From assembly GCA_937951485.1 (NCBI GenBank), contig CALEDJ010000007.1:62001-126000 (forward strand): 64,000 bases of DNA, written 5' to 3'. Made by a program: the position numbers and the translations under genes. Below the pieces are notes generated by a model. That model had not been told where the DNA came from. It did not search any database and saw nothing but the letters and a program-made list of their open reading frames with translations. This DNA comes from an uncultured bacterium (GTDB lineage Bacteria > Hydrogenedentota > Hydrogenedentia > Hydrogenedentales > CAILVY01). This document shows positions 1,861 through 61,497 of this stretch, in pieces (the first letter of the stretch is position 1; each line of letters starts with the position of its first letter).

Positions 1861-1950
1861 TCGGACAGGTCGGACAAATCGGACGGATTGGACGGATTGG
1901 AGGGATCGGACAGATTGGACGGATTGGGCGGATTGGGCGGATTGGACCTC
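1861..1950. repeat. 9-base direct repeat array (10 units)
   Basis: Ten consecutive 9-base units of the type TCGGACAGG / TTGGACGGA / TTGGGCGGA run without interruption. Period 9 keeps any reading frame open, which produces spurious Gly/Asp/Leu tripeptide ORFs. The array lies downstream of ispA and just before a double hairpin. A related purine-rich array lies at 22227-22379, and solo units occur near 6893, 50370 and 61411. Confidence 0.9.
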
Positions 1951-2000
1951 GTGACACCGCTCCCGCGGTGTCACGCAATACCGCGCCGCTCCTGCGGCGC
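1951..2000. repeat. Double hairpin repeat, copy 1
   Basis: There are two adjacent perfect dyads: GTGACACCGC/GCGGTGTCAC at 1951-1974 with loop TCCC, and GCGCCGC/GCGGCGC at 1983-2000 with loop TCCT. The reverse complement has the same order and AGGA-type loops as the copies at 30593-30642 and 34923-34971. It sits between ispA and the GH20-like gene and may also end ispA transcription. Confidence 0.85.
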
Positions 2001-2032: not shown

Positions 2033-4846
2033 ATGGGTTCAGTGGCTTTATTGATGGCATGCGCGCTGTTGGCGCAGGCGCCCGCCTCGCAGCAGAGCGA
2101 TGTGCGCGCAGGGCGCTATTTCTTTGTGGAACCCGACACGCCTGTCGTGATTGCGGACGACGCCGGGGAATCCATCCGCGACATGGCGGCGGCCATCGCA
2201 GAAGCCGTGGGCCAGCCCATGCCTGTCATGCACGACACCGAAGCGCCGCGACGGGGCAATGTTATTCTCGTCGGAGAGGCAGGACGCCACCGCGCGCTGG
2301 ATGCGGCCCTGTCCGCTCGACAGACCCGGCGCCTGCTATCCTTGAATGACGGCGCATACCTCCTGCAAATCGCGCGGCGGCGCGTGCTGGTGGCGGGCAA
2401 AGACGCGGAAGGTGTGTTTCGCGGCATGACGCTGCTGACGCAGATCGCGCGGTCGCATCGCCTCTCCTGGCCGCAATTGGACATCTTCGACTGGCCGGAT
2501 TTCGCCCTGCGCGGCATCGTGGCGCGCGGCCCGCTGACCACGGGCGAACTGCAAACCCTCGCGGAGTGGCGCTGCAACCTCGTCATCTTCGACAGTGATG
2601 ATTTTCACGACATGAGCGACGCGCGCGCTGCCGGGTGGCGACGGGTTTTCGAGGACGCGCGCCGCATGCACATCGAACCTGTGCCCATGTTCCGCGTGTT
2701 CAGCGGCGCGCAGCGCCTGCTCGCGGCGGAACCATTCGCGGCGGAAGGCCGCGCCGTCACCGACCTCATCACGTTTCGCGGCGAGGAATGGGCCGCGCTG
2801 TCCCAGCCCAACGTGCTCGCAACGGAAACCCACCCGATTCGCGTGGAGATTGCGCGAGGCTTTCCCGCCACCCCTGGAAGGGACTACGAAATCGCGCCCG
2901 GCCGCACCGACGCGCCTTATGACGCGATGAACCCTCCGTGGCGCATCCGCCGTATTGCCGGCGGCGACATCCTGGACGGGGCCACCGCACGGGTAACCTA
3001 CAGTTATGCCCCGCCGGACTCTTCCGCGCTCTGCCCGTACGCCTTGGAAGCGGAACAGGTGCTCCGCACGCGCCTGGCTGCACTGGTGGAACAACTCAAA
3101 CCGAATTACGTCCACATCGGCGGCGACACCATTGCGCGCATCAACCAGGACTTGCGGTGTACGGACAGAATGCGCGATATAACCGAGGTCTTCGCTGACG
3201 CTGTTGCGGTCTGCAATCTTGTCTTGAAGGAAATTCACCCCAATTTGCGGGTCATGCTCTGGGCGGACGCCATCACCCCCTGGCAGGACGCGCCGTTATA
3301 TGGTCTTGAAAGGACCCTGCCTGCGCTGCCGGGTGACGCGGTTATCGGCGTGCAATTCCGCCCCGCCCCGGGCGGCAATCCGCATCGCGGCTTCGAGGAA
3401 ACCATCGCGTGGGCCAAAACGACGGGACGGCCCTGCATAGCCGTCGCGGAAGGATCGCCCGCGCTGGCCTATGCCGTGGCGCGTCATGCGGGACAGACTG
3501 CTTCCCCCTTCCACGGGATTGCCGTCGCAACAGCCGTAAACACCGATGTTTTTCAGGCAGGCATGCACAAAGCCTGGTCGTTATCCTCGCCCATCCTGAC
3601 GTGGCCGGAATGTTTGAATGAATACTTCCATGCGACCGCATGGGCGCCATCGGAACCGGAGCAAATCAGCATTATCGCCGACCATATTAACCAACGCGCC
3701 CTGGAAGGATACGACCCCGCGACGCAACGCCGCGATTTCGCGGGCGCTCTGGACGCATTCCGGCGCGTCCTTTCCAAGCGCGACGAAGACCTTTTGTCCG
3801 CCGAACAACTGCACTCCCTCGGCGTCGCGAGCCTGACGCTTAACCCGCTGGATATCCCGTCCGCGAAAGATGATTCGCCCGCCGCGCGTTTCCGCGCACT
3901 GGTCCCTCCCTACCGGCCTGTCGCCGTACCGCCCGACCACCGGGTTTTTCCGGTTCCCGCCGATCCGATTTGGGACGGCACGGCCGGACGCCGCGAATTG
4001 CTGTTTGATTTGCTGGGGCATGTCGGGCCGGTGTGCCGTCTGGACGCTGCCGTCGCCGCGTCGAAACTGATCCTCGATTGCAGCGATGACGACCGCGTGT
4101 ACACGCCACTCGGCGTCTGGACGCCGAACGCGCCTGCAAGGCACTGTGATCCTGTCCTGCTGCCGCAGAAGCCGCGCGCGGCGCGTTACTACCGCGTTAT
4201 CGCCGATGGCACGCCGCCGGCGGCGAAAGCCGCCACCGATGCGCGTGTCTTTGCATTGAAAGGCCCTGCGGTCGCGATGTGTCCCTACACGCCTGAAGCG
4301 CCCGTACCTGGCCCGCCCCTGGCGGCGCCCGTCTGGCAGCGCGCGCCGCAGGCAACGGGGTTTCTCAGCGAGGACCGCCGCGCCTTCGCCGTTGTCCCCA
4401 CGGAAGTCTATCTCTGTCGCAGCCGAACGCATCTCTATGTCGGCGTCGCCGCCGCAGACTCCGATGCCGCGATGATGGCGGCGGGCTTTGTCGGGCGCGA
4501 CGCGCCGTTGTGGATGGAGGAAAGTTTCGAGATGCTGGTCGTGCCGGGGGCGGACGCGTTGCCGGTGCGCCTGCTGGTGAATCCGCTGGGCGCGCAATTT
4601 GACAGCCTCGGCGGCGATGCGGGCTGGCAGGGCGTCTGGGAAGTTCATGCAACGCGCTACGACACAGGATGGGCGGCGCTCTTGTCCATTCCCTTTGAGA
4701 CTTTGGGCAAACGCCCGGAACGCGGCGAAACCTGGCGCGTCAATTTCCAGCGACACCACCGCAGTGTGCACACCGAATCAAGCGTTTGGGCCTTTGACTA
4801 CGACGACCCCCATCGGGTTCAATTCGGCGCGCTGCGTTTCGAGTGA
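2033..4846 (+). CDS. GH20-like glycosidase with C-terminal CBM9-like domain, secreted
   Basis: This is a 937-residue protein with a signal peptide (residues ~1-20). Residues ~30-140 resemble the GH20 N-terminal domain, ending in the typical 'EGVFRGMTLLTQIA' and 'WPQLDIFDWPDFALRGI' segments. A TIM-barrel region follows to ~540 and includes 'YVHIGGDTIARI'. Residues ~750-937 look like a family 9 carbohydrate-binding (DOMON-like) domain ('RSRTHLYVGVAA', 'WMEESFEMLV'). In GH20 hexosaminidases the conserved pair is Asp-Glu (HIGGDE); here it is Asp365-Thr366, so the general acid is missing. Activity is therefore uncertain; it may be a binding protein or have another mechanism. ATG 2033 follows GGAG at 2021. 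The 3' end overlaps the convergent gene by 28 bases. Confidence 0.7.
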   Translation: MGSVALLMACALLAQAPASQQSDVRAGRYFFVEPDTPVVIADDAGESIRDMAAAIAEAVGQPMPVMHDTEAPRRGNVILVGEAGRHRALDAALSARQTRRLLSLNDGAYLLQIARRRVLVAGKDAEGVFRGMTLLTQIARSHRLSWPQLDIFDWPDFALRGIVARGPLTTGELQTLAEWRCNLVIFDSDDFHDMSDARAAGWRRVFEDARRMHIEPVPMFRVFSGAQRLLAAEPFAAEGRAVTDLITFRGEEWAALSQPNVLATETHPIRVEIARGFPATPGRDYEIAPGRTDAPYDAMNPPWRIRRIAGGDILDGATARVTYSYAPPDSSALCPYALEAEQVLRTRLAALVEQLKPNYVHIGGDTIARINQDLRCTDRMRDITEVFADAVAVCNLVLKEIHPNLRVMLWADAITPWQDAPLYGLERTLPALPGDAVIGVQFRPAPGGNPHRGFEETIAWAKTTGRPCIAVAEGSPALAYAVARHAGQTASPFHGIAVATAVNTDVFQAGMHKAWSLSSPILTWPECLNEYFHATAWAPSEPEQISIIADHINQRALEGYDPATQRRDFAGALDAFRRVLSKRDEDLLSAEQLHSLGVASLTLNPLDIPSAKDDSPAARFRALVPPYRPVAVPPDHRVFPVPADPIWDGTAGRRELLFDLLGHVGPVCRLDAAVAASKLILDCSDDDRVYTPLGVWTPNAPARHCDPVLLPQKPRAARYYRVIADGTPPAAKAATDARVFALKGPAVAMCPYTPEAPVPGPPLAAPVWQRAPQATGFLSEDRRAFAVVPTEVYLCRSRTHLYVGVAAADSDAAMMAAGFVGRDAPLWMEESFEMLVVPGADALPVRLLVNPLGAQFDSLGGDAGWQGVWEVHATRYDTGWAALLSIPFETLGKRPERGETWRVNFQRHHRSVHTESSVWAFDYDDPHRVQFGALRFE

Positions 4847-6892: not shown

Positions 6893-6919
6893 ATGTCGGA
6901 CGTGTCGGACATGTTGAAT
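6893..6919. repeat. Solo copy of the 9-base repeat
   Basis: Three 9-base units (ATGTCGGAC, GTGTCGGAC, ATGTTGAAT) lie between the sugar-binding lipoprotein gene and the GspB-like gene. They match the unit family of the 1861-1950 array. Confidence 0.6.
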
Positions 6920-22226: not shown

Positions 22227-22379
22227 AAAGGACGGAAGGGACAGCAAGGACAGAAAGGACAGAAGGGACAGAGGGGACAGAGGGGACAGCGACGACAGCA
22301 AGGACGGAAAGGAGGACAAGGACAACAGGGACTGCAGGGAATGCGGGGACAGCAAGGACGACAGGGACAACGAGGACAG
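22227..22379. repeat. 9-base direct repeat array, purine-rich (17 units)
   Basis: Seventeen consecutive 9-base units of the type AAGGGACAG / CAAGGACAG / AGGGGACAG / CAGGGACAA run in perfect phase between nagA and the M20 peptidase gene. All purine-rich units are on the plus strand. The unit core GGAC is shared with the array at 1861-1950. Period 9 keeps frames open and gives false Gln/Gly-rich ORFs. Confidence 0.9.
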
Positions 22380-22492: not shown

Positions 22493-22537
22493 TCCTTCTG
22501 TCCTTCGTGTCGTTTTGGTCCTTTTTGTCCTTTTCCC
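22493..22537. repeat. Inverted 9-base units (5), facing the 22227 array
   Basis: Five 9-base pyrimidine-rich units (TCCTTCTGT, CCTTCGTGT, CGTTTTGGT, CCTTTTTGT, CCTTTTCCC) are the complement-strand form of the units at 22227-22379. They lie about 115 bases from that array, so a transcript could fold the two arms together. The rest of the 22211-22582 spacer holds no gene. Confidence 0.65.
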
Positions 22538-46424: not shown

Positions 46425-48251
46425 TCACGCCGGTGCTGGCCCAGGACAATAATTGTCTTCGCTCATGCCCGGGCAATAGTGGTACCCCCCCATATTGTAA
46501 AACTGGATGGCGCGCAGCACTTCTGACAAACTTATCACCCAGTCCTGCGGATTATAGTCACTGCTGTGGGGTGGGCAATCATAGTTTCCACCGTGGCCCG
46601 GTATATATCCATCCTCAAGCGGATTCTCTGGATCATCGCAGGAGTATCCACCGACGTTGAATAACTGGATAATACGCAGCAGTTCCTGAATACCAATGCG
46701 CCAGTCCGGAGGATTATAGTCCGCCGCATGGAAATAGGGGCCCTCGCCTTCACCCTCGCCTTCACCTTCGCCTTCACCCTCGCCTTCACCCTCGCCTTCG
46801 CCCTCACCCTCGCCTTCGCCTTCACCCTCGCCTTCGCCTTCACCCTCGCCCTCGCCTTCGCCTTCGCCCTCGCCCTCGCCTTCGCCGCCGAAAGGCAGCC
46901 ACGCGGGGGTTACACACGTTTGGGTACAAAATTCCATTCCGCTCGCATAAACCAACTGCACATAGAAGGCTGTCCACCCTTCGTCAGGGGTTTCCACCTC
47001 AGCGAAGTATTCGCCGCTGCCGGGGGTGGTTTCGCTGATCGGCGTGCTGGTCCAATAGGGGCCGCTGCCGTCATACCATCTGAAATCACGGGCGGCGGGA
47101 TTCGTGGCCTTCCAAAGATAGACGGAAGAGACCGGGTCCACGACCTGCACGCGGACGGCGTTATCTCCCTCGAAGGTCCAGGAAAACTGCGGCAGGGCCT
47201 GACCACGCGCGACGACCAGATAGTAGTTGAGCAGACCAAGGATGGCGTTCATGTCCACGTCCATGCCGTGGCCGCTGTTGGGCGCGTAATACAGATGTTT
47301 CGTGCCGGGGAGATCATCAAAGTAAAACTGCGATGAATCCAGCACGAAGAATTCATCGCCCGTGGCATTGATGATGAATTTCGGCATGGTATAGCGATCA
47401 CGGTATTCGTAGGGATCAACAATCCCGCGAAGGACAACGCCTTCCGGGGTATCCATGCGGTCGAAGATGTTGTAGTCCACATAGTCATGCACCGCGCTCG
47501 AGTATGCGCCATAGCATTTCCAGTGGTGTTCCATGGAGGGCTTCATGTTGAGCACGTCAATCACGATGGGCGCGCAGGCCACCACGCGCGGGTCCACGGC
47601 GGTGGTCAGCCAGGTGGTCCAGCCGCGCTTGGAAGCGCCGCCGACCACGAACTTGTTCGCGGTGATACCGTGATAGGTCGCCGCGATGTCGGCGATGGCG
47701 TCCATGGCACGCACGGCGCTTTTGGTCATGGGCAGCAGGGCGGGCCATGTGGCGTCGCCGGTGGCCAGATATTTGTCGAAACTCCACGCGATCAGCGCAT
47801 CTTCCGATCGGTTTTGATTGTCTTCCAGACTGCGAATAGGCTGGTTCGGCACCTGCTCAAGAAAGGCCAGCATGCTTCCTGTCAGGGATGCAGCAAGCCC
47901 AAGATACGGCTCCAGATTGGTGGCGGCATCGTTGTTGTTGCCGCCGCTGATCACCAGCAGCGTTGTGTCCACCTGGAGCGTGTTGGGAATCACAATCGTG
48001 AGCCAATGCCGCCACAGGGTGTGGTTCACCTCCGATGCAGAACGCCATGTCTGTGAGGTCAGCCGCACCACATAGCGCGTATATCCGGGAACAGGCACAT
48101 ACGTGCTACTGGAAATCGAATAGGTATAAGATGGGTCCGGCGCGGCCACATAGTCGTCCAGCGGGGTCGCCAACGCTCCGGGGCCGGGGAGCAGCATTGC
48201 AAGGCAGGCGCAAAGACACATAATCACGGGGAGGGGGCAGCGCGTGAACAT
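46425..48251 (-). CDS. Secreted PhoPQ-activated pathogenicity-related (PqaA-like) protein with Glu-Gly linker and dockerin-like repeats
   Basis: A 608-residue secreted protein with a signal peptide (residues ~1-28). Residues ~35-470 match the PhoPQ_related family, an alpha/beta-hydrolase type: 'VISGGNNNDAATNLEPYL', nucleophile Ser207 in 'VVGGASKRGWTTWLT' and a His in 'APNSGHGMD'. A Glu-Gly linker follows (hexanucleotide tract at 46741-46884, ~24 units). The C-terminus has two similar ~30-residue units, 'DYNPPDWRIGIQELLRIIQ' then 'FNVGGYSC', and 'DYNPQDWVISLSEVLRAIQ' then 'FYNMGGYHYC', resembling dockerin/EF-hand repeats. AAGGAG precedes ATG 48251. The tail probably anchors or sorts the protein outside the cell, but this is inference. 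Confidence 0.82.
   Translation of the reverse strand: MFTRCPLPVIMCLCACLAMLLPGPGALATPLDDYVAAPDPSYTYSISSSTYVPVPGYTRYVVRLTSQTWRSASEVNHTLWRHWLTIVIPNTLQVDTTLLVISGGNNNDAATNLEPYLGLAASLTGSMLAFLEQVPNQPIRSLEDNQNRSEDALIAWSFDKYLATGDATWPALLPMTKSAVRAMDAIADIAATYHGITANKFVVGGASKRGWTTWLTTAVDPRVVACAPIVIDVLNMKPSMEHHWKCYGAYSSAVHDYVDYNIFDRMDTPEGVVLRGIVDPYEYRDRYTMPKFIINATGDEFFVLDSSQFYFDDLPGTKHLYYAPNSGHGMDVDMNAILGLLNYYLVVARGQALPQFSWTFEGDNAVRVQVVDPVSSVYLWKATNPAARDFRWYDGSGPYWTSTPISETTPGSGEYFAEVETPDEGWTAFYVQLVYASGMEFCTQTCVTPAWLPFGGEGEGEGEGEGEGEGEGEGEGEGEGEGEGEGEGEGEGEGEGEGEGEGEGPYFHAADYNPPDWRIGIQELLRIIQLFNVGGYSCDDPENPLEDGYIPGHGGNYDCPPHSSDYNPQDWVISLSEVLRAIQFYNMGGYHYCPGMSEDNYCPGPAPA
46741..46884. repeat. Hexanucleotide tract encoding the Glu-Gly linker
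   Basis: About 24 six-base units (CCCTCG / CCTTCG / CCTTCA / CCCTCA on the plus strand) encode alternating Glu and Gly in the PqaA-like protein. Third-position variation shows selection for the dipeptide rather than recent slippage alone. The tract is in frame and may vary in length between strains. Confidence 0.92.
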
Positions 48252-50290: not shown

Positions 50291-50465
50291 GGAGTACAGG
50301 CTTCAGCCTGTCAGTTCTGGAGTACAGGCGTTAGTCTGTCCCTGCTTGGCGAGCGGGGCCAAGCATTTTTTGTCGGACGGGTCGGACAGTGCATGGCCGC
50401 AATACCTTTCCCACTCCGCCCTCCGCCCGCCGCATACCCCATTCCGCATTCCGTACGGGGGCGGT
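50291..50465. repeat. Composite intergenic repeat, copy 1
   Basis: GGAGTACAGGCTTCAGCCTGTC (in two pieces: GGAGTACAGG and CTTCAGCCTGTC) at 50291-50312 and a diverged copy at 50319-50340 are followed by CCCTGCTTGGC, a TTTTTTGTCGGAC run with two 9-base units, and a CAATACC...CCGCATTCCG tail. The same order of parts occurs at 61360-61497. It lies between the metallophosphoesterase and GGDEF genes. Confidence 0.8.
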
Positions 50466-61359: not shown

Positions 61360-61497
61360 GGAGTACAGGCTTCAGCCTGTCCCTGCCTGGCCGGCGGCGC
61401 CTGCGCTCTTTTGTCGGACATGTCGGACACGTTGGACCACTCGCTGCGGTAATACCTCCCACCTGCGATACTCCGCATTCTGCATTCCGCATGCCGC
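61360..61497. repeat. Composite intergenic repeat, copy 2
   Basis: GGAGTACAGGC-TTCAGCCTGT is followed by CCCTGCCTGGC, a TTTTGTCGGAC run with three 9-base units (TTGTCGGAC, ATGTCGGAC, ACGTTGGAC at 61411-61437) and a TAATACC...CCGCATTCTGCATTCCGC tail. The parts match copy 1 at 50291-50465 in the same order. It fills most of the 61261-61590 spacer; I saw no gene there. Confidence 0.8.

Follow-up and report, generated by a model that had tools for sequence, protein, structure and literature searches.

Slippage and defunct mobile elements are the usual explanations for short intergenic repeats. In minisatellites, or VNTR loci, the number of units varies between orthologous arrays. Three other kinds of repeat lie close to the one described here. 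TAACTGA heptamer direct repeats, found in Beggiatoaceae, Cyanobacteria, and Bacteroidetes, have been proposed to be sites of a putative nucleic-acid-binding protein (MacGregor 2015, PMC4679880). In Geobacter metallireducens, 49 loci are described with four tandem GGGACCG heptanucleotides, and repeat sites paired on opposite strands have been called putative global regulator sites (PMC2700814); the direct repeats described for G. bemidjiensis range from 6 to 42 nucleotides (PMC2996986). Finally, REP elements are GTAG/CGTC tagged and intergenic, lie mainly in co-directional and convergent gaps downstream of genes, and often have mutually inverted units (PMC3733652).

We report here on arrays of 9-base units built around a GGAC core in the genome of an uncultured Hydrogenedentota bacterium (G000, 4.55 Mb). 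The window is the whole 64,000-nucleotide stretch from which the analysis set out (positions 62001-126000 of contig C7). A literature search, supplements not covered, returned no paper on these arrays. Cores that are kept next to free spacers, an exact pitch, and gaps that are occupied anew point to recognition.

Arrays in the window

Inspection of the sequence reveals ten 9-base units in a single phase in the gap 3' of a farnesyl-diphosphate-synthase-like gene (ispA), as the original prediction had it, except that it placed the start of the array two bases early, at 1861 (Table 1). Exact GGAC opens seven of the ten units, and the remaining three begin GGAG, GGGC, and GGGC. Tandem Repeats Finder reports the stretch 1881-1947 with the unit GGACGGATT and a score of 99. 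The ispA-like gene, whose nearest named hit (62% identity) places the organism in Hydrogenedentota, matches farnesyl diphosphate synthase NF045485 at 347.5 bits (cut-off 275) and polyprenyl_synt in Pfam. An exonuclease VII small-subunit gene precedes it, and the next ORF after the array (2033-4846) has a glycosyl hydrolase 20 side domain as its sole Pfam match. A known Rfam RNA family was rejected as the identity of the array, since an Rfam scan of the window gave no matches above the gathering score.

Related sites had been predicted at 6893, 50370, and 61411, and all three are real, with two, two, and three units, respectively. The larger array predicted at 22227 is likewise present, but its class is a different one (AAGGAC-like), and an inverted partner accompanies it.

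Table 1. Positions of GGAC arrays and the adjoining hairpins in the window
Feature	Position	Strand	Remarks
Ten-unit 9-base GGAC array	1863..1952	+	units 1-2 class GTCGGAC, later units GATTGGAC-like
Double hairpin adjoining the ispA array	1950..2000	.	1950-1975 and 1983-2000; separate REP-like repeat, outside the array unit
Two-unit GTCGGAC array	6895..6910	+	
AAGGAC-class array, left arm of convergent pair	22230..22377	+	exact core at 14 of 17 unit positions
Inverted partner array, right arm of pair	22500..22530	-	exact core at 3 of 4 unit positions
Two-unit GTCGGAC array	50372..50387	+	
Three-unit GTCGGAC array	61413..61437	+	last unit GTTGGAC

The double hairpin predicted next to the ispA array also exists, with a perfect 11-bp stem and a 4-base loop in its first part and a perfect 7-bp stem in its second. 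It is of the GTGACACCGC-TCCC-GCGGTGTCAC type followed by the GCGCCGC-TCCT-GCGGCGC type, and it recurs as a composite, with further copies in C5, C7, C16, and L228. A strict search of a sampled 1.26 Mb found five copies of the double hairpin, and it was rejected as a component of the arrays because an array lies within 300 bp of just one of the five. Other repeats were also observed. A REP-like hairpin, GGAGTACAGGCTTCAGCCTGTC, lies near window positions 50300 and 61370, in L001, and elsewhere, and is frequent in the source genome. Runs of CGCATTCCGCATTCC-like 7-8 base repeats, which are another intergenic repeat type, follow several arrays (C9 123640-123800; C7 123440-123480, equivalent to window 61440-61480). 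A 12/18-base tandem array, GCCCTCGCCTTC(ACCCTC), with 12 copies and a score of 196, lies inside long ORFs at window 46740-46886.

Abundance in the source genome

The pattern GGACN5GGACN5GGAC occurs 235 times in the source genome, compared with 15 times for the same pattern read backwards, and GTCGGACNNGTCGGAC occurs 110 times, compared with 0 for its control. These counts bear out the prediction of a genome-wide family, which is neither confined to the window nor present at chance frequency. In a 677-kb sample consisting of four contigs picked from a listing of pattern matches, GGAC recurs at a distance of 9 in 129 cases versus 27.8 expected, the largest excess over all tetramers and distances of 5-30 once one pair resting on 2 occurrences is set aside. 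When Tandem Repeats Finder is run without any motif, period 9 outnumbers every other intergenic tandem period, and GGAC is found in 27 of 32 intergenic period-9 rows versus 2 of 29 coding rows (Fisher P = 5e-10, with one array counted as two rows).

Arrays with at least three cores lie outside called genes in 26 of 34 cases, and a coding repeat was rejected on this ground; the calls come from a home-made caller, and single gaps may be misjudged. Permuted and other control cores give 0-11 intergenic arrays of at least three cores, versus 26 for GGAC, the value of 11 belonging to CGGA, which overlaps GTCGGAC arrays. Control periods give 0-1 arrays each, save for period 18 (twice 9), which gives 12.

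Conservation of cores, spacers, and pitch

Period-9 arrays in which an exact core was not demanded of each unit (92 units) deviate from their consensus by 0.12, 0.01, 0.05, and 0.10 at G, G, A, and C, and by 0.27, 0.27, 0.19, 0.11, and 0.19 at the other five positions. In the genome of one relative (G036), the core of the third unit is mismatched at a rate of 3.5% and neighboring spacers differ by 71%. Core mismatch and spacer difference are 4.5% and 83% in G037, 6.6% and 59% for the GTCGGAC class of the source genome, and, in a weaker contrast, 18% and 48% for its AAGGAC class; an array was counted as continuing only with at most two core mismatches, a filter that somewhat lowers the core mismatch rates. 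GTCGGAC cores in the source genome are spaced by 9 (101 cases) or 18 (19 cases), with no other value up to 24, and in Geobacterales a spacing of 10 is also seen (11 cases versus 89).

Slippage explains the number of units and the homogeneity of some arrays. It does not explain fixed cores beside random spacers at an exact pitch, and copying followed by neutral decay should not yield kept cores with a 71% spacer difference. The original prediction that simple slippage alone is insufficient is supported by this contrast, and its suggestion of a putative protein-binding array is compatible with the sequence pattern. Protein recognition is the best explanation of the kept cores, while RNA hairpins explain the pairs only. 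We lean, at slightly less than an even chance, toward reading the arrays as intergenic multi-site recognition arrays that are read by a putative nucleic-acid-binding protein and grow by slippage. Each 9-base unit would comprise a fixed GGAC core, usually within GTCGGAC, GTGGAC, or AAGGAC, plus free spacer bases. The putative binder, most likely acting on double-stranded DNA and less likely on RNA, would grip several cores at a 9-bp pitch, as one set in solo arrays or as two convergent sets in pairs, and slippage would alter the number of units. Among the observations that speak against recognition, the AAGGAC class keeps its outer core letters less well, and some long arrays are highly homogeneous along whole units, as slippage predicts (G034; C15 of the source genome).

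Position and orientation relative to genes

Positions of GTCGGAC arrays were analyzed in stretches of the source genome chosen for holding such arrays, two of which, on C10, overlap. The 39 solo arrays lie in 27 co-directional, 9 convergent, and 3 divergent gaps, so that 36 of 39 have the placement typical of REP elements. Divergent gaps are avoided (3 of 39, versus 31% expected by length, one-sided P = 0.0006, and 21% expected by number, P = 0.02), and 20 of the 27 co-directional arrays are closer to the 3' end of the upstream gene (P = 0.01). These solo arrays do not show the placement of TAACTGA, immediately 5' of start codons with a single orientation. With 12 arrays in sense and 15 in antisense orientation, there is no strand rule, which favors DNA over RNA as the substance recognized. 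A Rho-site reading is disfavored by the absence of an orientation bias. The CsrA consensus is ACARGGA, and CsrA-type binding would fit only some array classes.

Orientation agrees with local GC skew in just 19 of 39 solo arrays, and on this ground we rejected a replication-oriented signal. A chromosome-organizing role, if tied to replication, is likewise not supported. The predicted transcription-related role may fit the 3'-flanking position, but intrinsic-terminator-like sites are no rarer or commoner in array gaps (8 of 40) than in co-directional gaps (40 of 244). The arrays were rejected as terminator substitutes because such sites are not depleted. Position suggests a role at gene ends: arrays that lie mainly just behind genes could be roadblocks or insulators between neighboring transcription units.

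Layout and folding

The arrays occur in two layouts, namely solo arrays and convergent pairs in which a GGAC array is followed by a gap and a GTCC array. The GTCGGAC class of the source genome is largely solo (39 of 47 arrays), AAGGAC-like arrays tend to pair in the order GGAC array, gap, GTCC array, and neighboring intergenic arrays are convergent in 15 cases, divergent in 1, and in the same direction in 5. Among nine GTGGAC pairs of G036, six consist of 4+4 units and five have a gap of 10-11.

Paired arrays could form a long hairpin at the 3' end of a transcript, acting in termination or mRNA stability, an explanation that we consider improbable. Folding is far better than in shuffles for most of 11 paired elements (z to -10.2), and the convergent order, in which GGAC always comes in the 5' arm whichever strand is read, fits an RNA hairpin too, as does the 3'-flanking position. 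An inverted GGAC/GTCC arrangement persists in one gap across three species that differ in its letters, and a terminator-like site lies near the array at 8 of 20 Geobacterales loci, a count made without a control set. However, some paired elements show no clear gain over shuffles, as at C16 135521 (z of -0.5 and -0.8); for two of the 11 the gain is about one standard deviation at most. The solo arrays that make up most of the GTCGGAC class are not accounted for by a hairpin, nor does the lack of terminator depletion in array gaps agree with it; the unit is a direct repeat rather than a tagged short palindrome of the REP kind, and ten solo arrays scatter around z 0 when folded against shuffles. 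Arm spacers in the G036 pairs are complementary in 26 of 72 cases versus 21.7 ± 3.7 in shuffles. This lack of excess argues for sequence recognition and not for a fully paired hairpin.

Distribution across genomes

A match is present in 65 of 68 Hydrogenedentota genomes; 53 lie above their own control, and 33 are strongly enriched (at least 20 matches and 3x control), with a sum of 7525 matches versus 1336 in controls. Of 31 genomes reached through ispA loci, the one strongly enriched case noted is that of L031, also from Hydrogenedentota (225 versus 32), and most of 30 genomes outside this phylum do not exceed control; in one genome of Verrucomicrobiia, 28 matches compare with 16. Geomonas anaerohicana (G069) has clear arrays, yet its total of 54 shows no excess over its control of 55, and among 58 genomes of the order of Geomonas several are above control (e.g., 97 versus 25 and 129 versus 59) and many are not. 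Geobacterales arrays have GTGGAC and GTCGGAC cores, both of which are also found in Hydrogenedentota. Since the same cores occur in cultivable Geomonas, a putative binder and its effect on gene ends are directly testable. In a separate observation made by eye, a modular gene whose carrier-protein-like segments are repeated seems to contain three in-frame GTGGAC runs (L195, G036:C44:1500-5500).

It is conceivable, if doubtful, that one recognition system is common to Hydrogenedentota and some Geobacterales. A protein family would read GGAC-cored sites at a 9-bp pitch in species-specific dialects of the outer letters (GTC-, GT-, AA-, CAG-, and ATA-), and arrays would be rebuilt behind genes, the same gap sometimes being re-occupied by a new dialect.

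Turnover of arrays

At 20 other ispA-like loci, the stretch that follows the gene has no array, apart from a weak two-core match at one of them (L172); three of these loci (L179, L181, and L183) are partial matches for which the scanned stretch is not the true downstream region. For nine gaps with arrays in the genus g21, syntenic relatives allowed 22 comparisons, with at least three exact in-phase cores in 5 and two cores in 2 more, by hand count at loci chosen for holding arrays; the occupancy expected for random gaps is about 1-3%, a rough estimate from a listing of arrays. Given that most orthologous gaps lack at least three cores (17 of 22) and that the ispA array is absent in relatives, none of the arrays looks essential on its own. 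Turnover of arrays between species is fast. One g21 gap holds a 4+4 GTGGAC pair in G036, CAGGGAC-type inverted sets in G034 and G035, and 37 bases without an array in G037. A second holds a pair in G036, a solo array on the plus strand in G037, and a solo array on the minus strand in G035, and a third holds a pair in G034 and only a few dozen bases in G036 and G037.

The arrays might instead be neutral or selfish minisatellites, born by slippage and tolerated in 3'-flanking gaps, with GGAC common as a slip- or repair-prone sequence. We regard this as possible but rather unlikely. Orthologous arrays in two Geobacterales genomes do differ in unit number, as at VNTR loci (10 versus 16 and 5 versus 11), and the long homogeneous arrays, the lineage specificity of arrays, and the avoidance of divergent gaps, an outcome expected from purging at promoters, are all consistent with it. 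Neighboring units are not alike along their whole length, however, with spacers differing by 59-83% in three sets while cores stay intact, and neither the exact spacing without indels of the GTCGGAC class, nor the recurrence of one core and one period over the 33 strongly enriched genomes, nor the defined 4+4 elements of G036 is as this explanation would have it.

Presence and absence at orthologous sites could also reflect a small, REP-like element mobilized by a Y1 (RAYT) transposase, which we consider very unlikely. Array density correlates with Y1 gene number in the 68 genomes (Spearman 0.50; 0.28 with genome size removed, P = 0.02), and the REP-like hairpin lies within 300 bp of 12 of 48 GTCGGAC arrays versus 6.35% of random intergenic points. 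But no Y1 gene was found in the source genome with its 235 matches, just 3 of 20 RAYT neighborhoods of relatives contain even one two-core match, and the flanks of GTCGGAC arrays show no conservation and no shared element ends. We also observed that small GTCCCTTCGGGAC hairpins, together with inverted repeats of larger size, flank the RAYT genes of L298 and L301 (G036 and G037).

Comparison with known systems

Like minisatellites, the GGAC arrays vary in unit number between orthologous loci, and unlike them they have spacers that, in several genomes, are randomized between kept cores. They share with REP elements (PMC3733652) an intergenic location downstream of genes, mainly in co-directional or convergent gaps, and units that are often inverted, but the GGAC unit is not a tagged hairpin, and a link to RAYT genes was not found. 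As with the multicopy repeats reported for Geobacter, they are families of intergenic direct repeats spread over the genome (PMC2700814, PMC2996986); going by the description, the GGGACCG unit of G. metallireducens has 7 bases where the GGAC unit has 9 (PMC2700814). The TAACTGA repeats resemble them in forming many short intergenic direct-repeat sets with one fixed core in distant phyla, and are described as whole heptamer repeats, most sets of which directly precede start codons and share one orientation (PMC4679880). The GGAC arrays, in contrast, alternate a 4-7 base core with free spacers at a 9-base pitch, flank the 3' ends of genes without an orientation rule, and often form convergent pairs.
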